Made by a program: the position numbers and the translations under genes
Shown: in pieces, positions 13,946 through 64,000 of the stretch
How the letters are laid out: every line of letters starts with the position of its first letter
Numbering within the stretch: the first letter of the stretch is position 1
Origin: Nautilus pompilius
Lineage: Eukaryota; Mollusca; Cephalopoda; Nautilida; Nautilidae
DNA length: 64,000 nt
Assembly: GCA_018389105.1 (NCBI GenBank)
Contig: JACATO010000921.1
Coordinates: 596,001-660,000, forward strand
Direction of reading: 5' to 3'
Notes under the pieces: model-generated
Told to the model about the DNA's origin: nothing
What the model saw: only the letters and a program-made list of their open reading frames with translations
Database searches by the model: none

Positions 13946-14099
13946 TCAACATTTTGAAATTTTGGCTAATCTTTTCCACAATAGTTCGGTGTGGAATGAC
14001 CTGAATTTACCAAACGCAGGAACTACAAGAAAAAATTTCCAAAAATCAATTTCTTCCCAGGAATTACGCTGGATCTATTTAACCCATTCCTGGTAGAAA

Positions 14100-15130
14100 C
14101 GTCCGTCGTCCCGCCCGAATCGATAGAACACCCCACACGATGACAACGAGCAACGCCCGCTTTTCCTCTTCCTCCTTCTCCCCCCTTAGTCGTTAACGAT
14201 TCCGCCAGCCAACGCCACGTGTACCGTCCGCGCGCTCGCGCTCGCAGCGCCCCCTCTCGACGCGACCTTTCACCCGCAGTTGTGTTTTTTCAGTTGGCCT
14301 GGTAAGTATTCCATCTTTGTTCTTCCCTGTTCGCGACCAGCGCGTCCCCGCCTCACAGGAAACCCCGTCCTCCTCCGGGTTACCTGGTCCCCACCGTCGG
14401 CTGATCGTCTCTCCCCCTCTCTTTTTTGTTGTTGTTTTCTAAAAAATGAATATTCCTTCTCCCTCTTATTGCTGTCGTCGTCTGTTTCGCGCGTAGCCCG
14501 GCAGCAGCAGCAGCAGCAGCAGCCGCCTCCTCCTCCTCCTCCCAGACGCGGAGGACGACACACACACACCTTTATTTCTCCATGTGTGTGTGTGTGTGTG
14601 TAAATATACGCACACTTCCTTCGATTAACGCGCGAGCCAGCACTACCTACACCGACAGCAGCGATCCCGGTCGGCGTCTCCATTTGCGCGGTAGAAATTC
14701 AAAACTGGCGTACACGAGCTTCGGGTACGAGGGGCTGTCGCTGGGCCCCTTCCCCTACCTAAAATAAAGGGCTGGTTTGGAGGAGGGGAGGGGTGGGGAG
14801 ATGTAGAAAAGAAGAAATGATCCATTGGCGTTTCTTTTCTTTTAAATATCTGGGTGGGTGCAGCCAGCAGCAGCAGCAGCCGACCGAAGACGATCGCTTC
14901 CCCCTGTTGGGGATGATTAAAAATATAAATATGGGAAGAGCGGGGCCTTTGTTCCGTCCGTGGCCCCGTAATTATTATTGTTGTTGTTGCTGTTGTTGTT
15001 TTTTTTTTAAAAAAAAAGGTGTTTTGAAACGAAGTTGACGTTGGTAATATTTGTGCTGCCGAATCGGTTTCAGAGGTTGGGAGGGGGGAGAGAAGAAGGA
15101 AAGAGGGACGTTCTGCCCTCATATTCGGCG
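14100..15130 (+). promoter_or_regulatory. CpG-rich promoter and 5' UTR region of the AT-hook gene
   Basis: This is the most CpG-dense region of the window (for example 14205-14275). A consensus donor, ctg|gtaagt, at 14301/14302 would end a 5' non-coding exon. Joined to the exon starting at 16998, it places an in-frame TGA two codons before the ATG, which supports that start. Simple repeats are packed here: (CAG)7 at 14502-14522, (CCT)n, (CA)n and (TG)n at about 14583-14601, and more CAG/TTG runs at 14865 and 14980. The exact transcription start is unknown. Confidence 0.6.
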
Positions 15131-17001: not shown

Positions 17002-17055
17002 ATGCCTTCAAAAGGTACAAAGAGATCAAACAAGACAGTGACAGAAGAGATGCCG
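17002..17055 (+). CDS. AT-hook gene coding exon 1
   Basis: The acceptor gccttacag at 16997 leads to AGAC then ATG. The exon codes MPSKGTKRSNKTVTEEMP and ends at gtgagt in phase 0. The basic start resembles HMGA N termini. Confidence 0.82.
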
Positions 17056-20000
17056 GTGAGTACAGGGCGACAAAAGATGAGAAAGGGTCTGGGGACATGG
17101 ATAACAAAAATGAACCAGACGGTGGATGCTGGAGATAAATTATAGTGGAATGATAACTGACATATCGGAGTTTAAGGGAAAGCACCCATTGTTTTTGTGC
17201 ATTTAGTAATCATAAGCATTTAATTTCCATGCCATGCAAACCACCATTTTCAGCACCAAAATGTGCTCAGCAACAATGTCTGTACTTGTTTGCTGTAGCT
17301 GTCAAGTAAATTCTCTTTCCATTAGATTTGTACTGCCTTAAGATAAACCAAGAGAGTTCTGGCAGTTAACTTGTTTAAAAAATGTATATTTTTTTTTCTT
17401 TGTTTAATTCATGGATTTATTTCATAATGTTTGCAGTAGCAAATAAGTGATTATGATTCCAAGAACTGATAGGAGACTGTAGGTATATACTGGTTGAGGG
17501 TGCAGTGAGTTTGGTGCCACTTTGGGGATAATTTAAAAAACCTCATGGGATGGTTTCTTCTCTCTCATTTTTGTACTATTTGGTGGTGTGGGTTTTCTGA
17601 GTGTGCTCCCTTGTCTCTCCACAGCTGAACAATTCTAGTGGGGATTTTTCATTTCCTGTTAAGGTCTGAAGTGCCACAAGAATGGAAGCAATTGTTGGCA
17701 GTAGTTGGCACTATGCATTTGTAGATGATAATGATCGCAGATGATCATTGCCTATTTTGATTGCTTGAAACTTTCCATTTATATTTGCTTAAGTCCAGAG
17801 CATTTTTAAATAGCAAAAATAAATGAAAGATTACTGTTATTAGTTCCACTTTTTAGTGATGTAAACTTTTGTTTTGCAAGAAAACTTAGTGAAAATTCAG
17901 GGTTAGTTCACTGAGAAACTTTAAAAATATTGATCTGATTCAAAGTTGGAAAGGGGGGCACGAAGCTGGTAAATCCCATTTAATCATTACTTCCCCTGTA
18001 CACATGGCCTACATACATTTTAATGCAAATTGGAAGGTTTGCCCTTTCAGACCCACTGCAAATACATTAGTATTTGGCAAATAATAAACCCTGTATTTTT
18101 GCATGCTTAAATCCTTCCTTGTAAGTGAAGTTCCAAACTAAAGACATGAATATAGATAGAATAAGACTTTGGTTGATAGAAGAAATTGAAAAAAATGGAA
18201 GACAAAGATATTAGGCTAAGCCTCAGGTGACAAACTTTGAGACTTTATGAAGAAATATAAACGGGAAAAAAAACAAAAACAAGGTGCCACTTTTTCTACA
18301 GGAAAGTAAACTGTAGAGCAGGGTGGTCGAACTCAAATAAGCAAAGGGCCATTATTGATCAGGTTTATGCAACTGAGGGCCACTCTCCAAAAAAGTTTGA
18401 TTAAAAAAGATATTTATTAATACTTATACTAATAGAAAAATTTATTTACTACAGTAGCTAGTGCGAAATTTGAGGTTTTTTGTTTTTAATTAATTCTACA
18501 AAATCAATTTCTAAGTCAGTTAGTGCAACTCTGACACATGAAGCTAGTGTTTCATCATCTAGCTGATTCCTCTCTTTTGACTTTAGTTGGTTCATAAGAG
18601 AGAAGCTGCTTTCACAAACATAAGTTGAAGAAAACATTGAAAGCATGTGAAGTGCAAAGTTATTTAGTTCAGGATATGATTCTGCATTTACCAGTTTCCA
18701 AAATTCTAATGGATTGTCAAGGTTTTGAGAAAGAAGAAAATGATCTTTCAGCTCACATAATTCCAACTGCAGTTGAGCAGGTGCCTTATCCACTTCTATA
18801 GTAAAGGGATTCCTCAGTATCTTAAGGTCATCCTGAATTATTTGGAAGTCCTGAAATCTCTTTTCAAATTCAGTAGAAATATCACTAAGTATGGAAACGT
18901 AATATGAAAAGTCAGTTTCTTTATCAGCAAATACTTCCTTGCAGCTTGGAAAGTGTGTCAAATTGTTTTCCTTTAATTGTGGAATGAATAGTTTGTTCAA
19001 CTTCAATTTGAATGCATCAATTTTACCCACAAGATAACAGATATCATGATTTCTTCCTTGAATTTGTTTGTTCAGAACATTCAGGTGTGAGGTAATGTCA
19101 GTCAAAACAGCTAATGCAGATATGAAATCTGGATTTTTCAGGTCATTCTCAAATTGAGTAGTGTTAGCAGATATTTCACTTTCAAAGAAAACAAGAATTT
19201 CATTTCTCAATGCAAAGAACCTCTTCAAACAATCTCCAGCACTTAGCCATCTTACATCACAGAAAAGTGACAAATCTGGATAAGCAGCATTTACCTCTTC
19301 TAAGAAATTTCTGAATTTTCTGTGAGTTAAAGCTTGAGCACCACCACGAATAAAATTAACCATTTTAGTGATAGACTTCATTACAGGATGCAGTCTGGCA
19401 GACTTGGCACAAAGAGCTTCTTGATGAATTATACAGTGGTGTACTGGAACTAAGATATTGTTTTTTCTCAGCTCACCCACAAATCCAGTTTTCTGGCCAC
19501 ACATAGCAGGTGCTCCATCAGTACAGACAGAAGAAAGTTTTCCATATTTAAAATCTTCATTTATAAAATTTCCAACTACCATGTCAAATGATTCAAATAT
19601 ATCTTTTCCTGTAGTTCTTCCAGACATTGATTTCAGATCCAAGAGTTCAGTTGTCACATTAAAATTGTATTCAATAATTTTAATAAAAATAGATAGTTGA
19701 CATATGTCACAGTTGTCTGTACTTCCATCAAGAGCAGCTGACCAATATACACAATTAGCTATTTTGTCTTTCAGTGTTTTTTCCAGTTGTAAGTCAATAT
19801 CTTGAACTCTGGTAGAAACAGTAGAGAAACGTTTTTAAATTTATCAGCAACTTCCATTTCTCCAAGTGATTTTGCCATTTCTATAGCACATTCTTTAACA
19901 ATCTCTGCTGTACGAAAGGATTTACCCTTTTTAGCCAATAATAAAGATACACGATAGGAGGCATCCAAATACTGAGCACTAGCAGTAGGAGTTATGATTT

Positions 20001-23000
20001 TCAAATTCTTAAAAATATTCTTCTGTGCTGTAAGTTTATCAGTTAATTGTTGCACAAGCACCAGTCTAGCAGCTTTTCCTATCACATTGTCATATTTTTT
20101 AGCATGCGTTTTATAATGACGACTCACATTATATTCTTTCGAGCAGCTGATAGTTTGATGATAATCAAGGCATTTAATAATACCATTTTCCTCGATGCAT
20201 AAATATTTATATGTCCAGTCTGCATTAAACTTACAATGTTCAGAGTCAATTTTTTGCTTTTTTGATACATTAGACGCCATGACATGAAAACTGATACTAA
20301 TTCAAATTAAAATGAGATTTATGAATACGAAAAATGTTTGCGAAAACCCTTCAAAATTAACGGAAATTAATTACTATATATGCGAAAATAATTCATATAA
20401 ATATAATTTTGTTATAATGTGTAAAAATTTATTTAAAGAAGGAAAAATTTTTTAAAATTTAGTATGACCTCCCGGGCCACATTTTAAGGTACTGAGGGCC
20501 GTATGTTCGACCACCCTGCTGTAGAGCAAGAACTAAAACAAGAAACATTGCTGTTATAGAGAAAGATATACAGGAATATCTTAACTTGGCCATAGTACCC
20601 AGGCATGAAATTCTTTTGTTATGATGAGAAAATATTCTCCACCTCAAAAGTTGGCAAAGGTGCATCTTCCATGGATAGTGAATAGCTTTTTTAGCACCAG
20701 TGGACATACGTATAGATTTTAAGCCATCAAGAATCTTTTTCAGTCTAGTGTTAAAAGATTTTTCTGTTTTATAATTTAAAAACTTTTGACAAACTTTCAT
20801 CATTGTTTTCAGTTTTGAATCAAACCTGTATTACTTTCAGTATTTTGACCTTCACTTGGGTGCAGAGGTGTCAATACTAGGTGGGGGGGGGTGGGCAAAT
20901 CCCTCCCGATCAGCAGAACTCTGTTATGAGGTTGGTTATGTGTATGTGGGGTACCATGTCTATAAATAGTGTGTATCCTCGATTATTTGGTTTTAGTTTC
21001 TAACTTCTTTTTTGACCATTGAATCTTGATTATTGTTTGACCATGTGTACACAACAGTAGAGATTTCCCTACTGGATTTTGAAGTATTTGGTGTGGACAT
21101 ATTGTTGTATGCGTTCACAGATCAGTCTGGGATTCTGTTTGTATTTTGGGTTCTTGAGTCTGGGAGTGGCATTGTGGAGGTGGAGTCTCTAATGCAACAG
21201 GCTGTGGAGGATCAGGTGTTGGATGAAGTGATTGTTCCGGCATGGACTAAGGCTGCATTAAAGATCACGGCATTGCTGAATACAAATGTGAAACTGGCTG
21301 TGTAGGTCAGCATGGAAAAGTGGTATTCAAAGTTCTTTGAGTTCTTGGGCAATGGCGAGCAAAAATATTTGAGCTACAAGGAGATTGTTCCTAATTGCAA
21401 TAGGGCATTGTCAAACCTTCAGCAGCATTTCAAGGATGGAGCTAAGAAGAATGCTTTGGTGGCTTGAAAGCACAACATGAGATCCCTTTCACAAGGTGAA
21501 GGACACGAGGGAAGAGCTGCATGGTGTTTCCACATTTTTAATGAGGTTGGAGGTTGCATTAGATTGTCAGAAGAACTTGGATATGGCAGTTGTGACTTTT
21601 TTGGTCAGATGAGTAGTCATTTGGCTTTGTTGAGAAGTGTGGCTTTCAGAAATTGAAATTTGTTTCATGATACAAATGTTGCAACATTAGGAAGCAGACT
21701 TAAGAAGCTGATGGAAAGTACCGCAGCTGTTAACCTGGTTCTTGTCAGATGGCCAAACAGACAGATGCAGAACTTCAACGGCCTATTGGCTGCATGGTCA
21801 TACATTGTGGGAAGGTGCTGATTGAGGTGCTTTCCTGACAGTGCTTTGCCAATCTCTCACTGTGGCCAACCTTGTGCAGTGGTTCTGAAAGACATTCAAG
21901 AGTTTTGGGATTACCAACAAGATCATGTGGATGGGCACCAGTAGTGTAGTGAACATGTTTAAGGCATTCTGAGACAGAGACAACATAAAAGATAGTGCTG
22001 ATGACAAGAATGTTGATGTGGATAGCAGTGAGGGCAAAGCTGAATCATGGAATTGTTTGAAAAGGTTTCCCAAAACATGGTCAAGATCATGCTTGAGGAG
22101 ATTGCTCTGGTGGACAGAGGATTGCTTCTTTATGAATTATGATACAAGGGTCTGGTTGACTACCACTTCTGTTGCATCTGCCATCTAATCCAAATCTCAA
22201 TTAAGGACTTCATCAAGACATTTGTGCCCCATGACTATTAGAAGGTGATTGCCTAGACGGAGAAATTTGTGAAGTTTGTATGAAAATGCAGTCACAATAG
22301 TGAGTTCTTTATCAAGGAGAAGCTGATATAGCCAAGGAATGGCACTTGCTGGAACAGTATGAACCATATGCTCAGCTTAGTGTTGAAGGCATCCTTTAAG
22401 GATGATTTGCTGCATTATCTGAATACCTTGAAGGACCACAATTTCAAGTGTGCTTTTGTTCACATGATGGAGCTGAACGCTTTCTTCAATGATGAGATGC
22501 AGTGGACTTTGCAGACTGCTAAGCTTCTAGTGCATGGCTTTTGGAAAGAAGTATTAGAGAAATTGCATTTCAGGTTGTTTGAAGCATTTTCAACAATATC
22601 ACCAGCAAGTATGATGTATAGATCATGTTTGGTGTGTATCAGATCTTGAGAAATGAGATTTCGAAGAGCATTTGAGATTTTTGCCAAGATAAACCCCCAA
22701 CTTGGTGGGTGCTGATGCTATGGAGGAGGACTGTCTCAGCAGCAAAGGGGTTTTCCAGCTTTCCTTGGGTGGTGCCCATGATGTCAAGAATAGTCGCGAC
22801 CAAAAGTGGCTCTATACTATGCTGATATAGAGGTGACCTTATTACAGATGGATCTCTGGCCACTCCGGTAATGGTAGCAAACCAACAGAAGAGTATCCAG
22901 TCATGTTCTACCTGGTATTGGTCTACCTCAGCAGCCTGGTATCTACAGTGAGCATGGAGTGCCTGTTCTCACTTGCTGGCCAAGTCTGCCATACTCAGCA

Positions 23001-26000
23001 CACTTGGCTGACCCTGGAGAACCCAGAGTTGATCATGCTTCTCAAGTCATGGAACCCTTAGGTCAGTGTTTCTCATTCCTGCTGTCTGCTTCTTTAATTT
23101 TTTTTTTTGTTGTTGATATTTCTGTCTGTTATTTTATGTATTTAATCAATTTATCAGCAAATATATAATTTTTACATTCATACTCTTTGTTATTCTTATT
23201 GCATGTTGCTTGAAAGAGGAAAAATGATGTCACACAAGAAATTAAGAATGGGGGTGATTGTGCTCGCCTTCTATGCTATGGGGCTGGAGCCAAAATTCTT
23301 TGGGAAACACCGCCTTGGTTCTCAGAGCAGCAGAAGTCCAGCAATAAGTCTGGTGGATGGGTTTGCCCGCACATGTGGGTGCATAAAATCATGATAGAAT
23401 TTCAAGTGATATCGTTATCTTTTCATTTGCTAAAAGGATAAAAAATTCCTGAGTCATGCAGATTTCAAAAATCCCAAGTGGTGCAAAAAAACAATGTGTA
23501 AAAAAATTAATCATTTCTGAAGCAGACAACTCAGGAATTTCCGTACTTAAAAGGGCCAGCAATTGGCCAGGTGGTTGCACAAAATGCACTCATCTGACTG
23601 AAATTATTTAAAAGCATGCTAGAAGGCATTGAATGGCTCAAATAGCATAAACGACTTTGCACACAGTTCAGTAATCAAATGAAAATGAAATATGTTCAGA
23701 AAATGAAAGGGAAAATCCAATTTATAGTTCCGAAAGTCAAAAACAGATTGAAACACTCACTTCCAGGAAGTGGTCAGTCACTGTTACAGTTGGTGTCCAT
23801 TCACATGGTCTATAAAACATCTCACCCCTTCATGGGAGAATGGTACAAAGTGGGCAGTAGAAGTGGGTTTCCACTCTGTGACCAGAAGAGGTTTGTGGTT
23901 ACTTTTGGAGCATGCATAACACACAGGTGGTCTTTCTTTTCTCTATTTTTGCCAGGATGTGATGGCCTTGGTTGTTGTGGTACATGTGACTACCACTTTT
24001 TCTTGTAGTAGGCTTCATTTTCTTAGAGTGTAACCATCCGTCAGACCTTTGTCAGTGTCTAGCCTGATGTCTTTGTGGGTTTAGCCACTTGACGACAAGT
24101 TTTAATTTTCGAACAGCAGCTGTTAGGATCATGGTGCCTGACTTGTCAGAGGTGCCAATAGTAATTTATTTCCTTGAGTTTCACGACCTGCCACATTTAG
24201 TTTGTTGTCTGTACTCCAAAATTGTTGATGAAATGGAATGAAAGTCCACGGTGATGTTTACCATTATGAACGTCTTCATCTCCTTGGTTATGGTGCCTGT
24301 TTAGCTGTTATCTGATTTGCCTGCCTTCTGTATTTGTGCATTGTACCAGTTGATCAACATTGCCATGTGATGGAAAAAAAATCTGTGATGAGTTATTAAA
24401 ATAAGTTGACTGTCTTGACATCATCATCGACAGTCATCATCAGAATGATGCTGGGAAAACAGCACATTGATTGGCTGCAGATGACCTGGATTCCAGGTGA
24501 CTCCCCCCATTTATTTGACTTTTTTGTGGCTCCTGTTGACATCATGCAGTTCATGACTTGTCTAAATCACTGTCAGATCAGCTGAATGATGAGAGATTTG
24601 AGGCATGCATGATCAAAACCTCTACATCACCAGAAGGAAATGAGTCAGTATCAGACTATGTCGTAAATGAAATATCATTACAACAGAGTTTTCACAGATA
24701 GGTTCACTTTTGCAGCAAAATGAAATTATAAAAATAGACAAAGTTATTATGTGGACCAACAACATCTTGTGTGTGCTATCTATCTAATAGTATAAGGTGG
24801 AAGTGATTGGCCAGAAACAGCCAACTTGCACCCTACCCTCCTGGAAATTATTTAAAATATTTCAAATAAAATTATCATGATGACTATTTTTCTTTTCTTT
24901 TCTTCTTTACATTCCTGGGCAAAGTGCAGTGATTCAGCAGTTGGTCTACAGGACTGCCATGGTTGAGGGTCCTAAGTTTGAATCTCATTTAGGATCAGCT
25001 CGGTTTGGCATATGTCCTTGGCATGGTTTCTTCTCTCCTTCAACAGAGAGTCACATAGATTTCCTTCTATGTCTAAAAATGAAGAGTTCTAGTAGGGTTT
25101 TCCCAGAACGAATGTTGGAGATTCTGTTGGTAACTTGCGACTGCTTTGCGTGACCATTGCTCAGAGTTCCTTATTGTACCTAGGTAACTTGCTTGGTAAC
25201 TGAAGTTAATATCCTACACCTACCTCTCCCCTAGTTCTAGCTTACTGCTGTGAGATGTTCTTAGATTTCGAAAGTTTGGACAAGGTTTTCTAAGAAGTGT
25301 CATATTGCAAATATTATTTAGTTTGCAGCTGAGAATCAGACAATTGATCTATTAAAATTGCTTAAATTCTTTCTTGCTTCATTAAAAATTGCAGTATGTT
25401 TACAGATCTTTAATTTTTCTGATAATTTAGATAATTTGGAGGCTTGCTATTTGCTTTCCTACCAGCTATCTTAACATTTTTCATGTCAGAAGAAATTTTA
25501 AATACTATTATTTGGCTCTTCTTGGTACTTGATCTTTGAAAGACTAATGTTTTGCTTAAGCAATTGTGCTGTAATTTGCAGAGTGTTTTATATTGAATTT
25601 TCACATTGCCCTTGTGATCTAATGTGTAAACCCCATAGAGCTGTTGTGTAGTATATTTTATTTAATGTTCATGTAAATATTTGAATCCATGGATTCTGTT
25701 TAAGGTCTCTCACAGAAATACAAATTAGAATTGCTTAAGTGTTGATGGAATGTTGTTGGGCTGCACACCAACCTCAACAACAGAAATAACTTCTCTATGT
25801 TGAAGATGATCCTGGTGAGGAAGGAGTGTAGTGACATGGTTATCCACCAGAGAGAGTTGCCTGTACTGCTTGACAAAGAGCTCAGCATTTCCAACGTAGG
25901 CAGGAAAATCCCTACTAGAACTCTCCAAACAAGCCAATGCTGACTGGGACTCTGCCTGGGCTTTCAGCTTTGGCGGTCCAGCCTCCTAACTGCTGGGCTG

Positions 26001-32000: not shown

Positions 32001-35000
32001 TAGTCATATGCTTATATACATGTAGCTATAGGTGCTAATAATTTGGTTTATGTATGGAATAATTCATTGCTGATTCTGCAGTTATATCCAGCAAGTTTGT
32101 GTGTGTGGTTTTTTTTTTTCCTCTCTTCTGGCATTTTTTTGTATTTACAGCTTATTGCCATTTTTATTACTCCATTAGAATATACATGGGTTTCACCATT
32201 ATACTATAGTGGAGTTACAATCCTTTATTTAAAGATTACTATAGTGTTACCTGGAACAATAATTTATTTAAAAAAAATAACAACTTTTTTTTTAATTTAA
32301 ATTTTCCGTATCAATCTTAAATTCTGCATTATCTAGAACGACTATTGCATATTTGAATATATTCAAATGATTTTGATATTACCAAATAACTATGTCTGAA
32401 CTAAAGATGACAAATCTCAACATGAAAATGGTGATATGTTTGGCAAAAAATGATTGAGATGAGAAGATAGCAGACTGTGTTCTGAACTAACAGCTATTTG
32501 CTTCCACTTTGAAAATAAATTCTTGGTAGTTTTTGTTTTGGATTGGAGGGTAGGAGGCGCAAGTACAGAAAATAGGTATAACTGCTACAAGTGAATGAAA
32601 TTGATTTTCGTAAGTACATTCTGAAAATTAACAATTAGAAGTGGAGCCTATTTTCTTTCAGATGCAATGGAAATTTCTGGTATGCCAGTAACCTATGTCA
32701 AATGCATTTTCTATTCTTGCATTAAAGGTTCAATTTAAAAAAAAAAAATTTTTTTTTTTTTTAGAGAAAACCTACCGGACGCCCAAGAGGTCGGCCAAAA
32801 CTGCATTCAATCGTAAGTGCTGCAGCGAATTGCTCCATTGTTTCCTTCTGGTGAATATCATTGCTCAATATCAAACTATAAGGTTCTGACTGCAGTAATG
32901 AGCAGAGTCAGAAGAAATGGTGTTCAAAGCTGAATATGAAGTAAGCGAAAGCTCAGTTATTTCCATAACGTTTGCTGCTTTATATTTCCATTTAAATGAT
33001 ATAAATGATCTTAGTAATGTTATCCAACACAAAGAATCAAGAACTTATATCAAATATTGTTAATAATTTAACAGATTGCATATTCTACATTATTTTTTAG
33101 TTGATTTTGGTAGGGTTTGTTGTTTTTCAAAGATAAAGGATTTAGTTCTATAAATTCTTTGGGATAACATGATAATTTAGTTACTGTATTAGAGAAAATT
33201 GAAAAAAAAAAACTTTCAAAAAAAACCCCCCACCAAACAAACTTTATTAAGCCTTTCCTGATTAGAAAATGCAATATTAATATGCACAAACATTATTTAG
33301 GGAATTTCCAGTATGGCTGCAAAAATTGCACCAATCTGTTTAAAATTTTTAAAAACAATGGACTGACTCAAATAGTACAAATGACTTAGAAAATGGTGTA
33401 ATAATCCAAATGAAAAGAAAAAAAATTCAATTTATAGTGCAGAAAGTAAAAAAAAAAAATTGTGGAGTGAAATCATGTTGTGTATTGATTCAGTTTCTTG
33501 AAACTTTACTGTTAATACTATTGATGCTATGTCTGTTGTCCTCACTGCAAGAATCTTTGATGGATGGTGCAGTGGAAATCCATGTTGATATTTAATGCCT
33601 GGAAAGCTTTTATCCTTCTGGTGGTAGTGTTCTTTCAGGTGTTGTAAGCTGTGGATCTGTGGTGTAGTGGTTTGTCTCAATCACGTGGTGGAAAAAATTC
33701 TTCGGTATCAACTCAGAAAAATCAGTGGCACTAGTAGCTTGACTAGTGAAGTGATAATGTGGACCAGTGTATTTACTATCTATAGTATGGACTGAAAGGA
33801 TAATTGTGTGCCTTGTCAATTCTCAACTATTTTCAGCTGGTTTCAGTTCTGAAGTGGAAAGGATTTTTTAAAAAGGCCTATAAAAATGTTTGCAAGTAAA
33901 GACAAAAGCATCAATGAGATATTACTTAGAGTTTTGTGTGTATTGTATTTAATTCATATGTTTAGCCTGTTATTAATCACTTATTATTCCTTTTAAACTG
34001 GTTGGGTTAGTTTTCAGGAAAAAAATGTAGAAAGTTTGGAATTTTTTTAAAACTGTAACACTTACATTAAAAATACCTCAACAACTGTAAACTTTGCCAG
34101 TCGGTGTTAGTGACACGTGCTGTATCTATGTTTAGTCAGTAGTAATGTGAGATGGGCAATGATGAGGAACATTCTAAATTAATAGGTGATCAGAGCAAAA
34201 TGCGACAAATTTGAATTTGTAAATTTGCAGACAATTGACTGATGGGGCAGCAGGTGCAGTGTACAAGTGGTAGCCGCTTGGTTGAGGGCTTGAGTCTGAA
34301 TCTTGGTTGGGACTGGCTTGGTTTGAAATACTTTCCTATAATAGCTTCTTGCTACTCTTCAGCAGCTGGTCACAAGGGCCTCCTCCCCTCTGTCAAAGTT
34401 GGAAGTGCTGCCTGGTCCCTTGTGGCATGGGATTGGCAACTTTTCCCGGTTGAAAACCATGGCTCTGCGCTCTCTCACCAGTTTGTCTTGGAGACATTGG
34501 TGTACCACATGGCAACAACCAATTTTTTTGTATGCAGTGGTTATTTAATGCATTTATTCTGCTTCAGGGTTCCTCCAAAATGTGAGACTTCTGTTTAGTC
34601 GTAAATGTTTCACACTTGAAAGCGATTCCTCATTTTGTGTTTACTGGTTTTCTTCATTAAATCTACACCATTTCTTCCATTCTCATTGTGTGAATTTTTC
34701 CTTCCATTTATAAGATATTCCTGATGGTTATTAGTGTTGGCTTGGGGGAAATCCATGAGACTGGAAATTATTTCAGAAATATCTGTGAACATCTATCTCA
34801 AAACCCTAACAGACTTCACATTGTGACAACATTAGGCATAGTTTGGCTACTTGTAACAATTAAAAAAAAAAAATGCATGTATAAAAATGGTTGTGGCTGT
34901 ATACAGGTAAACACATTGTTTCATTATTATTTTTATGCCACAGCAACTTAACAGGGGAAGCATCTGTGATGTAATAATGTTTTAGCCCTTTGTCGTTATT

Positions 35001-38000
35001 AGTTTTGTGGAAAAGAGCAAAAACATGACATGATGACTTTGCGCTAGTACTTGGTCAAGCCACATTTTGCAACAAAAGTAGCTGCTATCCTGTTTGATAT
35101 TAAATCTTTGTGATTTTGTATCATGGCCTGGTCCAGGCTCCCCATTATCCATCTGAGAACTGCTTTAATGTGCTTCCACAAGTGCTGAATTTGATTTATG
35201 CAGAGCTTTCAGGTATTTAGGGAAGAAGTTGAATGTCTTGTTTCCTTTTTCCAGACCATGATCATACAAGAGATATGGCATGTTGTACCTTCCTCCTAAA
35301 GAATATGGGCATCAAATATCAGTCGGCCTTGTTGGTACAATGTCTTTAAATTGAGATGTTCTTAAAAAAAACCCACCAATTCTAGCTTTCCGTCAAGCCA
35401 TAATGAAGCCCATACCAGGATAAATGTAAATTTCAGTTAGGTGCATTGATTTAGTCAGGGAGGCAGCAAGTACTCTTTCAGACTTGGGCCTGACCTTAGC
35501 TGCAGAGACACATTAGGTTGGTCACATGATGTGGCTGGTGATCACTGTATATGACTTGAACATGCATATTTGCAGTCATTAGATATGGGGAAAGCGTTCA
35601 ACAGGTCCATGATAATGGGTGCACTTCTAGCTTGTGCCACTTGCCAAATAAGCTTTGTTGGTAGGCTGCTCTAAGACATTAGTCATTTGAGTTTATTAGC
35701 AGTGGCAAAGGTTCTGTTGTTTAGGTAACCAAAAGAAAGAAAAGGTGGTTAGACAGGATAGTAAAGTCCAACTTTCAGCAAACAGATCAACTGAAAAAGA
35801 GATTCATTGCAGGACAATCCACACCCAGCTCCAGCTGTACCTTGCAAAAAACGTCTCAATGAATGGTCTGTGGCAGTAGAAAATCATTGTGTAAACCACT
35901 GATCACAGTTAGTGGCATGAAAGGAAACCATGTGGCCTAGGACTGCAGATGTTGGACTAAGGAAGACTGACAAAATTGATGTGGTCTGACAAGTTATGCT
36001 TCATCCTTTTTTTGCATAGACAGGAAAAGACTGATTTGAAGAACACCCTGTGAATCACTTGCCTCTTGTGTGGAGCCAACTGTCTGGGCCTCTGGTGGCA
36101 AGTCATGGTTTGGAGCATGTTTTGCTGGCATACCAACACGCCTTTTGGTTTCTTTAGAAAGCCAGAATTAGTGCATTGACGCTTCACGTGTACCCTGCCC
36201 GGAATAGCTACTTACAAAACAACAATAGTTCCATTCATCATGGTCAGCATAATCTCTGGATCTCAATCCAATTGAGCATCTGTGGGATGAACTTGAAATA
36301 CACATCAGCCATCACGCTCTTCTGCCTATTTCAACACATTACATACAATATTAATGACTGAATGTGGAAATATCTTTCAGGACACAGCATCTTGTTTCTA
36401 TGTCGTTTTATTATGATTGTTATTCAGGCTAAGTGCCCTGCTAGTGTATGTCTAAAATTTTATCACTGCTAAACATAGTAACTATTTTTCAATTAGTAGA
36501 ATCCTAAAAGATGAAAAAAAAAAACGCCTCCAGATATTAGATTTATTTAAGGGTTTGTTTGTTTGTTCAGCTAGGTAATTTTCTTCAGGTAAATGTTTAC
36601 ATTGATACATGAGTCTTCTGTAGCATGGAGGAGAAGATGGATGACTACATATCTTTCAGTCTGAGAAGCCAGTAAAGAGAACCACCAACGAAAGACAAAT
36701 TTGAAAAGCATTTTTTCTCATTTCATTGAAAGAACATTGTTCAGAATTGGCTACAGCGTCAAACTGTAGATGTCAAACAAATGTCTGCGAACCCTGACCA
36801 AATACTGGTTTCCGTTCATAATACAACAGACACAAGTACGCACTTAACTTTTATTATAAACAGAGAGAGGATGCACATGTAGGGAAAATTCATTTGCATG
36901 AATGTTTGTCTGGTACGAAGAAACAAAGGTGAAAATAGTGTCACTTTTTTTCAGTGCCGCATTATTGCCAAAATGCAGAAATTTGTTTTTCATTTTGAAA
37001 ATCCTTTACTTCATCACGTAGAATACTATCTAATTACTTGCAGATTTTTCCCTTCTAGTCTCAGCTGAGACTTGTGATAAATTTTATTGAAATTGCAATC
37101 TCCAGAAAATTCTTATTATACATACCTGAAACTACACCTGCCAACCTGGTTTCAAATCCCACTTTGCTTGGTAATTTGATGCAATGCGTTTAGCTGGTTG
37201 ATCCATTTCTCTGCTTGGAATCCAGGGGAAATTTTCGGCTAGCAACTCCTGAAAATTTGTTGTTATTATTATTACAACTTAAAAATGAGATGTAAAATGT
37301 TGAATTCCTTTCTTTCTTAAAAAAAATAAATAAATAAAGGTTTCCTGAATGTTTATGTTGCTTGTTACTGTTGACGGAGCCATGTAAGTTGGTGTGTATG
37401 TCCTGTTTCATTTCCAGGATTCCAACATGCCAAAAGGAACTCGGGGTAGACCACGGATTCACCCAGTAAGTTCATCTGGAAACTCTGATAGTCGCTTTTT
37501 CTCAAGCCACTGCCCTTAGTCTTCTTTGGTCGCTAAACCCATTAGCGGTGGGAAAGACAGTCAGATAACAAGCCGATTAAGTAGTACAGTAAAACTACGT
37601 ATTCACCATCCAATTATCCATACCTTTTCTTTTCTTTTCTTTTTTTTTTTTTGGATAATGCAACACACTGGTAAAAAAAAAATTGTTGAAATTATGATCA
37701 CCAGAAAAAATACCTTTCCTGCAAAAAATTCATGGCAAAAAATACTTATTGTACATACCTGAAACTTTTTTCTAGTAACCCAAGTACAGTAGACTGTATC
37801 GTCAACTTTAATTCATTGCTCACTTTGTTTTAGTTCATAGTTAATGCTTTTTATGGTTTTTACTGTGTCTGCTTTCCTTTTACACCAGATTGCCATGATT
37901 CTATCAGAAAAGAGCTGAGGCTGTGGTCAGTTGCATTAACTACATTTGATATCTAGATGACATCATCTTGGTAGTTATGCAAATAAAGCTTTTAACGGCA

Positions 38001-41000
38001 CATTGATTAACCTAAGGATAGACAGAATGTCTTGTGTACTGTACAAATCTAGAAAACACCGAGTTAAAAGGACAAAACAATTTGATGTATTAAAAATATA
38101 TGTGAATGTAAGTTTTGTGTTCTCAGTAAAGATGCTTCTAGCTTGTCTAAATCTTACATTGACAATTATATGTGAAATTTCTACCAAAACACATGCTTAT
38201 GCCAAAAAAATAGCTACCTGCCTGATGATGTAGGGTATGGAAAATATTAGCAAGTTAGTTTTTTTTTTTTTTTGGTACCTATGTGGTTTGTTTATTAATG
38301 TATTAGGAACAAAAGATTTTAAAGTGCCGGTTTATTGACTCGAATTCTCACAAACTAATAAAGAAGGTAAATGAAGATATCTCCTTTCCATCATGAATGT
38401 ATCTACCTAAGTAAACTATTCAACAAGCTGGACTGTCACAGTAATATTCTAGCTTAGCGAAGCAACATTTATTGCCTACATTAGGTGTGGATTAATTTAC
38501 TTTAGTTTGAAAATAATGGAGGGAATGATGTCAGCTTACAAAACACTGGTAGGTAAGGCTTGATTTGACACGACTGAATTAAACTCTTACAACTTGGAAT
38601 GCTCAGGTGTTTTGTAGAGTCAGTTTTCACTTTGCTATTCCCATATACGCCAGCTTATTTATTAATGTACAGTCTTTTGCTTTCTGTAGTTAAGTTAATG
38701 GTAAAAAAAAGTTGTTTTTTTTTTTCCTGTTCTATTTTCTTTTGTAGGAGGAACCAAAAAAGGGTAGGGGAAGACCATCACTTGCAAAAGAAAAGGTAAC
38801 TTATTTTAGTTTATAAAAAAATTACTTAGTTAACCATTCTTGCTGAAATCATTACAGATTCAATCTCCTGTCCAGGTATGCAGGATTGAAGAGAGTGGGT
38901 ATCATCATGTTGAGCTGTGTTTTCCCTGAGGTTCTCCTAATTCTATAGATCACCATACATAAATGGTAGAGTTGTGCACCACAACTTCAGCAGCGAAATA
39001 CCTACTAGAACTTGATTTTTAGATGTGAAAGGAAACCACACAGCTGGTTGATGGAGAAGGGCAAGAAGGAACCAAGACAGATATGCTAAACTAACCTGAT
39101 CAGAGGAAAAACCCAGGCCTTTAACCTTGGCAGTCCAGTAGCCTAGCCATTGGGCCATTGACCACTCTTCAAAGAGTGATTCTAAAGTCTCTAGAAAAGT
39201 TAGCATCTCTCTTAAAATAAGAACAGAAAGTAGTGTTACCAGGTCACAGTAAACTTACTGCAGTCAGTTGCTTATAGCTCCCGGACTGTAACATTAAATG
39301 AAGTGGGTGTGCATGGGGTTGTTACTCTTATACTATGTGACATCATGCCAAACCAACAATGTCTACTTTAAAAATAAGTTTTTGAAATCAGTGCTCAACG
39401 TTTGCTGCTATTCTCAATGATAGCTTCCAGGCGTAACAATATATAACTGCTTACTAGTGCAGATGGCAAGAATGTTTTGTTGAATGTTGATAAACACTTC
39501 TCTTAAGGAAATCAATCTGTAGAAGTTGCAGATTTTGTAACAGTTGTGGCAAAAGATTAGTCATTCATGTGTGCATCATCTTTATACAGAGTTGTTAGGT
39601 AAACTGCAAGTATTTTTGTAGGCAGTAGTGGTGGCAAGCATAAGTGGGATGTACATTTCTGTTAACTTCTGTTGTGGTTTAGGAGATTATAAGCAACTGA
39701 TTGCAGTAAGTGACTCAATCCTTTTTCATTTGTCAACCAACATTGCATCAGACTTTTAAGACAGCCAAGCATTGATGAGACACTTAATAAACACTTATCT
39801 GTACTATAGATAATACGTGCAGGAGAATGCTGGTCTACATTATTATTTCTTCCAGCTATTTCTGTTGCTTTGTTTTTTTTTGTAAAACTGACTTTACTAG
39901 TCAGGCTACTTTCATGACCAACTTGGATTATCTACTTGATGGAATTAAATGCTGAATTCTTTCCTTCTGGTGATGTGGTAGCTTTGATTATACTTTGGAT
40001 CTCTCATTCAGTTGGATATGGAGAGCAAAGTTGTCAGGTTGAGTTTGACTCATTTCCAGCTGGTTAATGTGCCAGCATTTTGCAGTCTGCCATCCCAAAG
40101 TTTGATGATGATGCCACCTCAACTGAATTTGTTTGAAAGCCAATACTGGAGAATTTCTTCCACTAAGTGGCTACACCACACTGATCCAGAGGGAGGCAGC
40201 AGGCAGAGTTGCTTGGATAGACACCACCAGAGAGAAAAATGAAAGAGTTTGTAACAGTGAACACAGCTATAATTCTGTTCCTTTCATTATTGGAATGAAG
40301 AGTCGGTATTGGCACTTCTGTGACAACAATTGGGTGATTCTACTGTACATGTTTTTACTTTCTGCACTATATAATACATTTTGTATACATACATCCTTTT
40401 TTATTTCGATTACTGAACTGTATGTTAAGTCATTTGTACTATTTGAGCAATTCCACGACTTTAATGTTTTTTAATAATTTTAATCAGGTAGGTGCATTTT
40501 GTGCAGTCATCTTTGAGGTTGTCTGAACATTTGTGCATGTAAAATATTGCATTTCCTGAATGATAAAAGGTTAATGGCCATTGGTAGTTTAGGCTTACCC
40601 CATCACCTTATTGTAAATAAATAACTAATTGGACCTATCTCAGTGTCTTCATCATCAGGCTTTGGTGTTAAGGAGGACTGCCCTGGAGGACAATTACATT
40701 ATCATTAATTTGCAGTAGTAGAGTGGGCTAAAGTGTTGGAATTAAGTTGCAGCAACTGACGGTCATTTCAGTTCAGGCCACGTGAACAATCCAAAGTAGA
40801 AAAACACCCTAGAACAAAAAAACAACATATATTTAAAGTCTCCTTGAAGACTGAACTGTGCTTATGGTTTCAAAGGTGGCCAAAACCGAAAAAAATTAAA
40901 TTTTATCAAAATCTCTCATCTTAGAGACATGGATTCATTAGCTACTTGTGTCACCATTAGCAAGAAGCCACTTAATGTCTGTCTTTAAACTTTTTTAATT

Positions 41001-43683
41001 AAGAAAACAAAGCAAAGACAGGCTTTTAGTGAAATTCTACATTAAGAATAAACTTGTTTCTATTAATATAACTAATGAAAAATAGTATTTAATGTGGTTT
41101 TAAAAAAGAAGGAAGCCTGTACGATTAATATTCTTGTTTAAATTTGATATACAATTTGTGAATCAAAACACATGCTTTATGGAGCTATAGTTCATGTTTC
41201 ATTCATCTCTTTCAGGCTTCCAGTAATAAAGGTAGAGGTCGTCTGAGGAAGAGTGCAGCGTTAGACTCTGTAAGTGCTTTGTTGTTTCAATTAAAGGGAT
41301 GTTATTTGCTAACTTTATTGGCATAAAGCTGCTGTTCAGATTTCAGAAACAAACATTGCCATTCTTTTCTTGTGAGGTTACAGTGGCATTTCTTAGGTGT
41401 CTACAAACAGCAATCCAGTGTTAATGTCGAGATGTTGGCATTGTTTTAACTATTCATTTCATTTTTTGTGGGGTAGATGATGGCTGTGACCAAGTTATTG
41501 GCTACTGAAGCAGTTGAAGATGAAGATAGAAAACAATTGTTTTGGGTAATTTTAGAATCAAAGACATGTTACAGTGGATTCTCCTGATCTATTAGAGGGT
41601 GGACTTAAAATCTTGATTTTTCCAATCAGACTTCCCAGTAAGAATCATCTCCTCTCTTAACTCATTTGTGGTTACAGATCCCTTTTTTGGTTACAAGATT
41701 AGGGATCATGTGCTTAGGTACTGAGTGGATTGCATGACCACTTCACAGCGTGGGAGGGAACAAGTGAAAGTCCTTACAAAAACATCTTTTTCAGATTTGA
41801 AGGGAAATCAGTGTTGCCAGTCTAAGTCAAGATTTTACTTGGGTGTCAGGAACCAATCAAAACTAGAAATTTTGTTTAAAGATAAACTCTTTACATTGTT
41901 GGGTGACTTTTAATGTTGGCAAAATGTCTGGAAATGTTCAGAAGCAGATCCAACGCTAATTCTTTTGCTCCTTGTTTATTATTTTGCAAAGTTTTTATTG
42001 CCACTTTGATTTGACAACTAAACATTTGGAAGCATCCAGCAATGATCAGAATCTAGTTGTTAGTGCACAGCTGCTTTAATTATTAAAAGAGAATTTACAT
42101 TGTAAAGAATACTTGCCTATTCCTTGTACTTTCATTTGATGTCTTTAACACTTTCTTAGCAGCAATTTGAAACAGAAAATGGTGTGGATAGATTGTGAAT
42201 AATTGTTTATTGTCTTGTTAAAACTCTGTTAGACACATGAGCTGACTGCCTTGGCCAATCATTTTGACCCACCCTGTAATTTTCAATGTTTGCTTTTATT
42301 AGACATGAAGCTGTCAATCTAAACGCACAACAACTGTCCAACAATTAAACTCTTTCTTTTAAAAATTTGTGAACCTAACACCAAAGACATGAGAAATGTC
42401 AGTTTGAATGAATAGGTTTATTGCATCAATCAGAATATTCTAGAATTTTTTATTATATTTTTTATGATTTTTTATCCTTTTTCTGTCAGAACTTTCCTTT
42501 CATTCAAGAACAGTCTGGAGATTTTTCAGCAAAAAATATTAATTCCCAATTATGAGGATATACGTGGAAAGTGTGCAAGTGATTGTGATAGAGAAGATTA
42601 CTACAAAAATTCAAAAAGGGGCCAACACGTTCAGAAATTGTTGAAAACCCTGGTCTTCCAGTAAGAACTGCTGGCGGGGTTATTGGAATGATTAAGAAGA
42701 CTGTCACAAAGGAAAGAATGAGGCTTCAAGAGAAGGATAGGTTTGCCTTAGATGGTACACTAACTGGACCGTTGGAAGAAAGTCTTGCCGAGAAGATATT
42801 GGATAAATCTGTTAGAAGATGTTCGGTAAGAACGGGCTTCAAATCACATCCCAGCTACGGAAAAAAAAAGAAACCTTTGGCCTTACAGAGACAAAAGAGA
42901 TGACTTCATTTTTGTAAGAAATACTAAAATTGGCAGATAAATAGAAGATTGGAGCAAGGTGATATTTTCAGATGAAAGTCAACTAAATCTTTTTGGTAAC
43001 CATAATGCTATGATAGTCAGAGAAAATCAGATGGAAGATTTAATGCAAACTAGTTTACCAACTCTGAAGCATCCAGAAAGTGTTCATATCTGTGCTGTTT
43101 TTCTGCTAATGGTTAAGGCAAGTTGGCAATCCTACCAAAAGTAACTTCAGTGAATATAAATTGATATTTGAATTTTCTAGAATCTGTAAGGAAACTCCAT
43201 CCTGGTGGCAACTTTTGGTTTCTACAAGATAAAGTACATAGCAAAGTCTTCTCTTAGTTCAAGAACAAAAAAATGAATTGTTTTAAAAGATTGGCCTGGT
43301 AGTTCTGACTTAAATCCCATTGAGAACATATGGGCAGCAATGGGGCAATTTTCCAAGGAATAGAGGAGAGTTGGCAAAGGTCATTAAGGAGGCTTTGGAA
43401 AATATTCATCTCACAACATTATTTGAAACAATGTCATGTAGAATGAAAGTGGTCATTGGTCAAAATGTTAACAAAAATTAACTTTGTAGTTCTAATTCAT
43501 TTCTGTTGTTACAATTTCATTGTTTGTTTGTTTGTTAATAAATAGTTGATAAAATCCACCCACTTGGTGATTTTAAAAAAAAGCATGAAGAATGAAAATT
43601 ACTGAGTGGGCTAAATCAACTGGCCAGGGCTCTTTAAATAACACGGCTTAGTTTTGTGTTGTGTCTGTTTCTCTTAGGATTAA
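17002..43683 (+). CDS. HMGA-like multi-AT-hook chromatin protein (ten coding exons)
   Basis: Coding exons are 17002-17055, 26107-26151, 26627-26686, 27307-27342, 30374-30430, 32765-32812, 37418-37465, 38748-38795, 41216-41269 and 43678-43683. They sum to 456 nt and 151 aa. All coding junctions are phase 0 with consensus AG/GT. GRP-core AT-hooks occur in the exons at 26627 (RGRPP), 30374 (RGRPRKP), 32765 (GRPRGRPK), 37418 (RGRPRIH) and 38748 (RGRPS), with a degenerate one at 41216 (RGRLRK). Two exons (26107, 27307) are acidic linkers. AT-hooks bind the minor groove of AT-rich DNA, so a nuclear architectural role like HMGA is likely. Vertebrate HMGA has three hooks in about 107 aa, so this protein is longer. 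It lacks a clear acidic tail. Orthology to HMGA is not proven. The introns carry most transposons of the window. Confidence 0.85.
17056..18310 (+). other. AT-hook gene intron, part before the hAT insertion
   Basis: This is AT-rich intron sequence with no recognised gene or repeat ends. Confidence 0.5.
18319..20518 (-). mobile_element. Nearly intact hAT DNA transposon
   Basis: The element is 2200 bp. Its first 14 bases, cagggtggtcgaac, are perfectly inverted at the other end, and perfect 8-bp duplications ctgtagag flank it (18311-18318 and 20519-20526). It holds one transposase on the minus strand. Perfect target duplications and a single frameshift indicate a recent insertion, in antisense to the host intron. 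Confidence 0.95.
18458..20280 (-). pseudogene. hAT transposase (ZBED5/SCAND3/GTF2IRD2-like), one frameshift
   Basis: The N-terminal frame runs 20280-19771 and the C-terminal frame is open down to 18458; one frame change near 19815-19835 joins them. The N terminus has a BED-type finger: KEYNVSRHYKTHAKKY supplies the two His, but the first half reads CLDY where the family usually has Cys-x2-Cys, so one zinc ligand seems lost. The middle has CTDGAPAMCGQKTGF, HCIIHQEALCAK and DVRWLSAGDCLKRFF, typical of the RNase H-like hAT core. The C terminus (MLSMFSSTYVCESSFSLMNQ) is the dimerisation region. It cuts and pastes DNA in the nucleus when active. This copy is probably inactive. Related domesticated proteins exist in vertebrates. 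Confidence 0.92.
20527..21299 (+). other. Intron sequence between two hAT elements
   Basis: A G-run is present at 20881-20890. An open frame at 21033-21305 could be the start of the next hAT relic, but I see no supporting motif in it. Confidence 0.4.
21300..23061 (+). pseudogene. Second degenerate hAT transposase relic
   Basis: Plus-strand pieces in shifting frames are visible. Early ones include EKWYSKFFEFLGNGEQKYLS and NRALSNLQQHFKDGAKKNAL. The end at about 22905-23061 reads YLSSLVSTVSMECLFSLAGQ and then LTLENPELIMLLKSWNP and a stop, the hAT C-terminal dimerisation motif (S-x-E-x-x-F-S...AG). Many stops separate these blocks. It belongs to a different hAT lineage from 18319-20518. The start is uncertain, and terminal repeats were not found. 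Confidence 0.65.
23515..24830 (-). mobile_element. piggyBac-related repeat, copy 1
   Basis: This aligns by eye with copy 2 (27785-29500) from the shared gcacaaaatgcactca segment at about 23577 to the shared agtataaggtggaagtg end at about 24790. The transposase frame would be on the minus strand and is heavily broken. Boundaries are approximate. Confidence 0.65.
24922..25155 (+). repeat. tRNA-derived SINE, copy A
   Basis: The head cagttggtctacaggactgc followed by gtttgaatctc resembles pol III A and B boxes. The body contains ggtttggcatatgtccttgg and the tail agttctagtagggttttccc. The same order recurs in other copies along the window. Confidence 0.7.
25745..26013 (-). repeat. tRNA-derived SINE, copy B
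   Basis: Read on the minus strand it has cccagcagttaggaggctgg near its start and agttctagtagggattttcc in the body. It then continues into a longer 3' part ending near caacaacattcc. It lies just before the 26107 exon. Confidence 0.65.
26107..26151 (+). CDS. AT-hook gene coding exon 2 (acidic linker)
   Basis: The acceptor is ctttag and the donor gtaagt, with phase 0 on both sides. It codes 15 residues starting EEVGTVKDSKGD, acidic and without a hook. Confidence 0.8.
26627..26686 (+). CDS. AT-hook gene coding exon 3 (SPKK plus hook)
   Basis: The acceptor is cttcag and the donor gtatat. The exon contains GSPKKVRGRPPNP, an SPKK minor-groove motif directly joined to an AT-hook core, and is phase 0/0. 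Confidence 0.87.
26687..27306 (+). other. AT-hook gene intron ending in a (TC)n tract
   Basis: This is AT-rich. Its last 40 bases are almost pure C/T with an uninterrupted (CT)n core, so a microsatellite forms the polypyrimidine tract. Confidence 0.7.
27307..27342 (+). CDS. AT-hook gene coding exon 4 (acidic microexon)
   Basis: This 36-nt exon codes EEVSKEKDGDEE between ctccag and gtaagt, phase 0/0. It resembles the 26107 exon (EEVx..KD..), which suggests an exon duplication. Confidence 0.78.
27785..29500 (-). mobile_element. piggyBac-related transposon relic, copy 2 (longest)
   Basis: Minus-strand pieces in changing frames include ITMGLHSIPGK, INEAMIVFKGRCHIAVSP (in two frames), HPQWLYHQHFDVYNRNQCES and KRLSEKLLAKHHQL. 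These match the order of piggyBac DDE transposases: MGLH..P near the first catalytic region, then the DEAM-x-x-FKGR motif, then an xxGY..NF-x-VYT-like block. Stops and frameshifts make it inactive. Ends are approximate because TTAA-flanked inverted repeats were not located. Confidence 0.7.
29501..30373 (+). other. AT-hook gene intron, no feature seen
   Basis: This is AT-rich intronic sequence up to the acceptor before 30374. No gene or repeat end was recognised. Confidence 0.45.
30374..30430 (+). CDS. AT-hook gene coding exon 5 (hook)
   Basis: The acceptor is ggacag and the donor gtgagt, phase 0/0. It codes APIKRSRGRPRKPDSEKKK, the closest match in the gene to the canonical extended hook KRxRGRPRKP. 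Confidence 0.9.
30655..31385 (-). mobile_element. piggyBac-related repeat, copy 3 (internally deleted)
   Basis: The left part (acttagcacacagctcagta) and the right part (agtaatgatgtggactgcct, then a ctatggtataagtg end) match the corresponding ends of copies 1 and 2, while most of the middle is missing. No transposase motif is left. Confidence 0.6.
31386..32764 (+). other. AT-hook gene intron with a poly(A)/poly(T) acceptor
   Basis: This is AT-rich. It ends with an A run directly followed by a T run and the acceptor AG (about 32736-32764). No gene was recognised. Confidence 0.5.
32765..32812 (+). CDS. AT-hook gene coding exon 6 (double GRP hook)
   Basis: This 48-nt exon codes RKPTGRPRGRPKLHSI, phase 0/0, with donor gtaagt. 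Two overlapping GRP cores (GRPRGRPK) lie in one exon. Confidence 0.88.
33305..33800 (-). mobile_element. piggyBac-related repeat, copy 4 (internally deleted)
   Basis: It shares gactcaaatagtacaaatga, then aatttatagtgcagaaagta, and the gaagtgataatgtggaccag end with the other copies. At about 500 bp it is the shortest copy. Confidence 0.6.
34235..34460 (+). repeat. tRNA-derived SINE-like repeat, copy C
   Basis: The head gtggtagccgcttggttgag is followed by gagtctgaatcttgg, resembling A and B boxes, then ggactggcttggtttgaaat, which corresponds to the cggtttggcat segment of copy A. The 3' half diverges from the other copies. Confidence 0.55.
34980..35560 (-). other. Possible second transposon fragment, family unclear
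   Basis: The minus strand keeps partly open frames containing KSQRFNIKQDSSYFCCKMW and LDQVLAQSHHVMF. This looks like decayed coding sequence adjoining the Tc1 relic. I could not assign it to a family. Confidence 0.3.
35700..36360 (+). pseudogene. Tc1-like transposase relic
   Basis: Plus-strand pieces include SFFCIDRKRLI, SGGKSWFGACFAGIPT and SLDLNPIEHLWDELEIH at about 36250-36300. The last is the Tc1 C-terminal catalytic block (D-L-N-P-I-E). Stops and frame shifts are frequent. Element ends were not found. Confidence 0.7.
36361..37417 (+). other. AT-hook gene intron segment with a possible decayed exon
   Basis: This is AT-rich intron. At 36660-36704 a good acceptor (atctttcag) is followed by a basic in-phase peptide and a stop; see the findings. 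Confidence 0.4.
37418..37465 (+). CDS. AT-hook gene coding exon 7 (hook)
   Basis: This 48-nt exon codes DSNMPKGTRGRPRIHP between tttccag and gtaagt, phase 0/0. Confidence 0.88.
37466..38747 (+). other. AT-hook gene intron, no feature seen
   Basis: AT-rich with T homopolymers at about 37635 and 38259. No gene or transposon end was recognised. Confidence 0.45.
38748..38795 (+). CDS. AT-hook gene coding exon 8 (hook)
   Basis: This 48-nt exon codes EEPKKGRGRPSLAKEK between tttgtag and gtaact, phase 0/0. It is the third exon of exactly 48 nt in this gene. Confidence 0.86.
38945..39180 (-). repeat. tRNA-derived SINE, copy D
   Basis: On the minus strand it reads ggcccaatggctaggctact and ggactgccaaggttaaaggc, then ggtttcctttcacatctaaa and aagttctagtaggtatttcg. 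This is the fullest match to the family order seen in copies A and B. Confidence 0.7.
39790..40530 (+). mobile_element. piggyBac-related repeat, copy 5 (inverted)
   Basis: It lies in the opposite orientation to copies 1-4. It begins with a ctgtactatagataatacg segment, the complement of the shared right end, and finishes with atcaggtaggtgcattttgt, the complement of the shared left end. The interior is deleted and scrambled. Confidence 0.6.
40531..41215 (+). other. AT-hook gene intron, no feature seen
   Basis: AT-rich intronic sequence between the inverted piggyBac copy and the 41216 exon. Nothing further was recognised. Confidence 0.45.
41216..41269 (+). CDS. AT-hook gene coding exon 9 (degenerate hook)
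   Basis: It codes ASSNKGRGRLRKSAALDS between ttcag and gtaagt, phase 0/0. The hook core is GRL in place of GRP, which should weaken minor-groove binding. Confidence 0.83.
41270..42459 (+). other. AT-hook gene last intron, first part
   Basis: It contains an AG-preceded, in-phase open stretch at 41477-41545 ending at GT, which might be an optional exon. Otherwise it is AT-rich with no recognised feature. Confidence 0.4.
42460..43560 (+). pseudogene. Tc1/mariner-like transposase relic
   Basis: Plus-strand pieces include RRYWINLLEDVR, EDWSKVIFSDESQLNLFGNH (about 42945-43005) and DWPGSSDLNPIENIWAAMG (about 43290-43347). These are the two catalytic blocks (FSDES; SDLNPIEN) of Tc1-like transposases in the right order and spacing. 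Stops and frameshifts interrupt it. It lies just before the last exon of the AT-hook gene. Confidence 0.8.
43678..43683 (+). CDS. AT-hook gene terminal coding exon
   Basis: A strong acceptor (gtctgtttctcttag) is followed at once by GAT TAA, giving a final Asp and stop in phase 0. A longer open frame here exists only in the other phases, which the upstream phase-0 donor would not use. Confidence 0.6.
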   Translation, partial: D

Positions 43684-52226: not shown

Positions 52227-52236
52227 ACACTAAAAC

Positions 52237-58238: not shown

Positions 58239-64000
<5,762 letters not shown>

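Follow-up and report, generated by a model that had tools for sequence, protein, structure and literature searches.

The forward strand of the window, the 64,000-nucleotide stretch of DNA analysed here (positions 596001-660000 of the contig), carries a chain of ten coding exons, E1 to E10, whose predicted product is a small basic protein with multiple AT-hooks. The + strand was read between 12000 and 47000, a script searched the window on both strands over its full length, and we rebuilt the chain, recomputing exon coordinates, lengths and phase. The borders are canonical AG/GT throughout, and the introns separating the coding exons are in phase 0 in nine of nine cases, with lengths of 475-9051 nt. 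Splice sites were scored with a simple weight table, so that the scores rank sites and do not prove them.

All exons of the chain lie on the + strand. The coding part of E1 (17002-17055, 54 nt, MPSKGTKRSNKTVTEEMP) has no hook and scores 14.5 at its acceptor and 10.3 at its donor. It is followed by an acidic linker exon, E2 (26107-26151, 45 nt, EEVGTVKDSKGDGSE; acceptor 6.4, donor 8.3), by the hook exon E3 (26627-26686, 60 nt, KDPGSPKKVRGRPPNPGKEK; donor 5.7), by a further acidic linker, E4 (27307-27342, 36 nt, EEVSKEKDGDEE), and by the hook exon E5 (30374-30430, 57 nt, APIKRSRGRPRKPDSEKKK). E6 (32765-32812, 48 nt, RKPTGRPRGRPKLHSI; donor 6.2) carries a double core, GRPRGRP, and is succeeded by two more hook exons, E7 (37418-37465, 48 nt, DSNMPKGTRGRPRIHP) and E8 (38748-38795, 48 nt, EEPKKGRGRPSLAKEK), and by E9 (41216-41269, 54 nt, ASSNKGRGRLRKSAALDS), which has a degenerate RGRL hook and the weakest donor, 5.4. 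E10 begins at 43678-43683 (acceptor 9.8) with an aspartate and the stop codon and continues into the 3' tail. AT-hook cores are thus found in six exons, five with RGRP and one with RGRL, and the second GRP core in E6 brings the total to seven GRP/GRL cores. The spliced frame encodes 151 amino acids with a pI of 10.5, rich in Lys (26), Arg (19), Pro (18) and Gly (17), and devoid of Phe, Trp, Tyr, Cys and Gln. The exon series described in the earlier note is confirmed by the recomputed coordinates: ten coding exons, nine of them of 36-60 nt, coding introns all in phase 0, three hook exons of exactly 48 nt (E6, E7 and E8), one exon with two GRP cores (E6) and one with GRL (E9), together forming a modular gene with one hook per phase-0 mini-exon in an HMGA-like layout with extra hooks. 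The alternation of acidic and hook exons described there is seen in the first half of the gene, with E2 and E4, but not in E5-E9, which are five consecutive hook exons.

Upstream of E1, a CpG-rich and G+C-rich region (13751-15000, + strand) is a putative promoter or 5' exon region. In 500-base segments starting at 13751-14501, the CpG observed/expected ratio is 0.85-1.41 and the G+C fraction 0.47-0.56, compared with a CpG ratio of 0.42 for the whole window; segments starting at 12001-12501 are likewise CpG-rich (0.89-1.16), but with a G+C fraction of 0.43. A non-coding first exon likely ends just before the donor gtaagtatt at 14302 (score 10.6), its putative end lying at 14291-14301 on the + strand. 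Directly upstream of the putative promoter is a minisatellite (13102-13930, without assigned strand) made of units with TGACGTCA or TGACGTTA. TGACGTCA, which corresponds to the CRE consensus, occurs eight times in the window, every time inside this minisatellite. On the other side of the gene, a frame at 52234-52656 resembles the CD225 family (interferon-induced transmembrane type) at 16.5 bits, below the cut-off of 27.1 (E 0.0093), a Mos1-type mariner transposase fragment lies at 56765-57292 (HTH_48, E 3.1e-07), and two - strand frames (60948-61283 and 61616-62092; E 1.4e-19 and 1.9e-11) mark a NAPRTase-family gene, which over 60948-62092 we take to be probably NAMPT.

The introns hold several mobile elements. 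Intron 1 contains an apparently full-length hAT transposon (18319-20518) with terminal inverted repeats of ∼16 bases and an 8-base flanking duplication, CTGTAGAG; its - strand frame 18458-19834 matches the hAT dimerization domain (E 4.6e-11), and a second - strand frame (19771-20301) has no relevant match. Between E9 and E10, the segment 42550-43490 resembles, by eye, a Tc1-type transposase remnant. Diverged copies of one further element are found in five introns, at 23506-24805, 27772-29478, 30622-31407, 33246-33452 and 40352-40575. A locus elsewhere in the genome (L008, on contig C2067) directly matches three of these five stretches. The introns thus share repeats because the element is dispersed, and these repeats are no remnant of exon duplication.

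Integrity and origin of the hook exons

An AT-hook core is only four residues long, and such words could in principle arise by chance in low-complexity DNA. As a control we counted mini-exon-like segments, defined as splice-flanked stretches of 30-90 nt open in phase 0, taking the lowest-scoring sites among E2-E9 as thresholds. The + strand of the window has 12 such segments, six with a hook core, two that are E2 and E4 and four that are seemingly unrelated, whereas the - strand has four, none with a hook core. Twenty sequences simulated with a second-order Markov model, searched on one strand only, gave 1-10 segments apiece and not a single core. A six-frame scan of the window with a motif pattern (a basic residue or proline, at most two residues, then K/R-G-R-P/L/K) placed all + strand matches within the six hook exons and gave four matches on the - strand, every one of GRL type. 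With six hook mini-exons in one phase on the + strand set against none on the - strand and none in 20 simulations, a chance origin is very unlikely, and we reject it. Another conceivable reading is that transposons have partly broken an old gene, leaving exons that are in decay or wrongly joined and a product that does not function. Copies of the dispersed element occupy five of the nine coding introns, intron 1 has taken in the hAT element too, the core in E9 is degenerate and the C terminus is odd, all of which would fit such decay. However, the nine mini-exons are all open, share one phase and have consensus splice sites, and a CpG promoter-like region is present, so that we consider this reading very unlikely.

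The gene appears to be single-copy. A search of the genome (727,640,739 bases) with the protein returned eight matches at E <= 10, seven of which are E1, E3 and E5-E9 of this same gene; the eighth, a weak one on contig C2067, is a copy of the intron transposon without a hook exon. We rejected that locus, L008, as a paralog: its strand has no hook word, and the other strand has one GRP without basic context in a frame with stops. No second copy was found among the best candidates, which were the ones that the search scored, and other AT-hook genes may exist. A genome search with the Pfam AT_hook model gave no matches here and likewise none in the control genomes (0 of 14), so that its negative result is uninformative.

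We rejected the idea that exons were recently duplicated together with their introns, as exon-masked 400-base flanks share nothing at E <= 0.01 apart from overlapping neighbor flanks (E2/E3 and E3/E4) and one 31-base match (E2/E8). At the peptide level, similarity exceeds that of shuffled sequences in 9 of the 28 exon pairs (uncorrected p<0.02), all of them hook-hook pairs, a count that is inflated by the defining motif. At the DNA level, six of the 28 pairs reach p<0.02 (E3-E5, E3-E7, E3-E8, E5-E9, E2-E7 and E4-E9), and because the last two join an acidic with a hook exon this test is no clean proof of kinship among hook exons. The pair E3-E5 is alike in both tests. Duplication of a combined acidic and hook unit, seen as E2-E3 and E4-E5, drew no support from the pair E2-E4, which has a DNA p of ∼0.23 and a place outside the protein pairs at p<0.02. 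Among the five RGRP exons, 23 of 40 codon comparisons within the motif show a silent difference and none an amino-acid change, a comparison biased by the fact that the exons were found by this motif; the silent differences suggest an old date for any duplications. An origin of the hook exons by old duplications within an HMGA-like gene would be the most likely one.

Relation to HMGA and other multi-hook proteins

The published layout of human HMGA1 and HMGA2, in which every AT-hook is on a separate exon and HMGA2 adds a linker exon of 11 amino acids (PMC7038092), bears out the earlier note's statement that vertebrate hooks are encoded separately. The vertebrate proteins and the present one are alike in being small and basic, with one AT-hook per exon, and HMGA2 also shares with it the use of a linker exon (PMC7038092). 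Multiple RGRP-core hooks with basic flanks are present here, and each lies on its own exon, E6 with its double core included. In contrast to the three hook exons and ∼100 amino acids of HMGA1 and HMGA2, there are six hook exons, seven cores and 151 residues, and in place of the C-terminal acidic tail the model ends in ...AALDSD, its acidic segments being internal. The tryptophan that follows the third hook in HMGA2 and in the HMGA proteins of amphioxus and Saccoglossus (PMC7013770) is absent from this protein, which contains no tryptophan at all. The Pfam AT_hook model (PF02178) scores the whole protein at 9.6 bits over four stretches, under the gathering cut-off of 17.4; human HMGA2, as a control, scores 24.9 bits against the same model. 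Searches of PDB sequences and of NCBIfam with the protein found no match, and Rfam, run over the window at gathering scores, gave nothing useful. Given the departures in hook number and size, acidic tail and tryptophan, together with the Pfam score, we call the gene HMGA-like and not HMGA.

The possibility that the gene is nevertheless a true HMGA ortholog, the single HMGA gene of an invertebrate in which hook exons were added and the acidic tail disappeared, is a serious one, to which we give a little less than an even chance. The protein is basic, has its hook segments one per exon and lacks aromatic residues, the genome search found one such locus only, and HMGA-like genes are known from cnidarians to chordates (PMC7013770) and in protostomes (PMC3723657). 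Against orthology stand the six hook exons where three would be expected and the joint absence of the acidic C-terminal tail and the tryptophan. The weak CD225-like frame and the NAPRTase-family gene, the recognized neighbors inside the window, are also not known as neighbors of human HMGA1 or HMGA2, next to which LLPH, MSRB3, RPS10 and NUDT3 are found.

Genes with more than three hooks have been described before. The nearest precedent is XHMG-AT-hook of Xenopus, described as a distant relative of HMGA1 and HMGA2, whose products XHMG-AT-hook1-3 have six to eight hooks, three transcript forms, a duplicated hook exon and no acidic tail (PMC3723657). The hook number found here falls within the same range and the tail is equally absent, a likeness drawn from the published description; the Xenopus proteins differ in being 276-327 amino acids long, in having internal repeat boxes, the first almost identical, and in that their eight-hook forms depend on a genomically duplicated exon (PMC3723657). 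The authors of that study report that they did not find a similar sequence in other species (PMC3723657). D1 of Drosophila also bears many AT-hooks, ten, on a single chain and is proposed to bundle satellite DNA through multivalent binding, but its acidic domain is at the C terminus (PMC5957525). With the six- to eight-hook gene of Xenopus (PMC3723657) and the ten-hook D1 (PMC5957525) preceding it, the novelty that the earlier note saw in a larger, modular gene was overstated. An invertebrate gene with more than three hooks arranged one per exon was not among the matches listed in our literature search, which covered titles and the beginnings of abstracts, mostly of freely available papers.

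In AT-hooks it is the RGRP core that enters the minor groove of AT-rich DNA. A chain with several hooks can bridge DNA, a mode of action proposed for D1 and HMGA1 (PMC5957525). By analogy with known AT-hook proteins, each RGRP core of the present protein would grip a short AT-rich tract, making the whole a multivalent minor-groove binder; several hooks on a flexible, probably disordered chain may bridge or bend AT-rich chromatin, while E2 and E4, the acidic linkers, would keep the hooks apart and moderate their charge. The eight-hook protein of Xenopus reportedly failed to bind AT-rich probes in electrophoretic mobility shift assays (PMC3723657), and therefore the number of hooks need not mean AT binding. 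Overall, the gene probably encodes a multi-AT-hook chromatin protein, the product of an apparently single-copy animal gene whose symmetric phase-0 mini-exons would each supply one hook segment, acting as a multivalent minor-groove binder.

C terminus, 3' tail and let-7 matches

The C terminus of the model is the part of the chain that is least firm. The last coding exon, E10, supplies one residue, which counts against the preferred explanation, and an alternative acceptor at 42490 scores 12.1 compared with 9.8 at E10, which makes the C terminus uncertain. The segment 41477-41545 (+ strand, MMAVTKLLATEAVEDEDRKQLFW; acceptor 5.5, donor 4.8) is the sole candidate exon between E9 and E10 at relaxed thresholds; it has an acidic stretch and might, speculatively, be an extra phase-0 exon, possibly of cassette type. 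Polyadenylation-type AATAAA signals lie 3' of the stop at 44502, 45106, 45169, 46689 and 46861, with further ones beyond.

Because let-7 acts on the 3' UTR of vertebrate HMGA2 and so lowers the gene (PMC4742387), we looked for let-7 matches on purpose. Two TACCTCA words, let-7 seed matches of the 7mer-A1 type 26 nt apart, lie on the + strand in the 3' tail: one at 44832-44838 and a second at 44858-44864 with extended 3' pairing (-18.9 kcal/mol), both of which are candidate sites. The window as a whole has five such words on the + strand and three on the - strand. With the tail taken as far as 45190, 0.4% of 2000 dinucleotide shuffles had at least two words and none had a pair within 50 nt; with the tail taken as far as 46880, the figures were 1.5% and 0.05%. 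Of two kinds of control, 5.3% and 8.0% equaled or bettered the pairing energy of the second site, that of the first is unremarkable (50% and 77%), and another site without a seed match pairs with let-7 at -20.4. An mRNA ending at the AATAAA of 44502 would carry neither match. We regard the pair of predicted sites in the tail as an unexpected lead, which would parallel the let-7 link of HMGA2 (PMC4742387).

Splicing, hook number and implications

Since the internal exons are all symmetric, skipping of any of them would alter valency without a frameshift. This agrees with the in-frame skipping that the earlier note had foreseen: all 256 of the 256 subsets of E2-E9 give distinct in-frame proteins with 0-7 GRP/GRL cores, from no cores and a net charge of -7 to seven cores and +29. 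By default we would expect one main full-length mRNA, with some skipping plausible. A stronger version, the idea of the earlier note, in which hook and acidic exons would be skipped according to tissue or stage so as to set the number of hooks, their spacing and the charge, is in keeping with the uniform phase 0 and the 36-60-nt size of E2-E9, which open those 256 combinations, and with the lower-scoring sites at the E9 donor (5.4), the E3 donor (5.7), the E6 donor (6.2) and the E2 acceptor (6.4). Plain exon duplication, however, also leaves symmetric exons behind. The precedents cut both ways: the Xenopus forms do vary between six and eight hooks, but the eight-hook forms require genomic duplication of an exon and not splicing alone (PMC3723657), and human HMGA2 has six further splice variants, but those listed alter the C-terminal tail and 3' UTR and not the number of hooks (PMC7038092). 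According to the same source, the last four exons of human HMGA1 vary only as HMGA1a/b and a rare HMGA1c, and the reported variants of the two human genes affect the tail or a short segment while leaving hook number as it is (PMC7038092). We therefore hold splice-programmed valency to be a doubtful, if real, possibility. The fuller proposal, an invertebrate HMGA-type gene in which mini-exon splicing serves as a developmental valency dial and the 3' tail is under let-7 control, is decidedly unlikely in our judgment.

The gene illustrates a way of multiplying a short DNA-binding motif, exon by exon, with the reading frame kept. If only one isoform is made, it would be an ordinary HMGA-like gene with extra hooks; if the number of hooks varies in RNA, it would offer a natural system for the valency of an architectural chromatin protein on AT-rich chromatin. 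Conservation of the let-7 matches would put a date on a familiar circuit of developmental timing, and should the combined reading of a splicing dial and let-7 control prove true, the link between let-7 and HMGA would predate the vertebrates.
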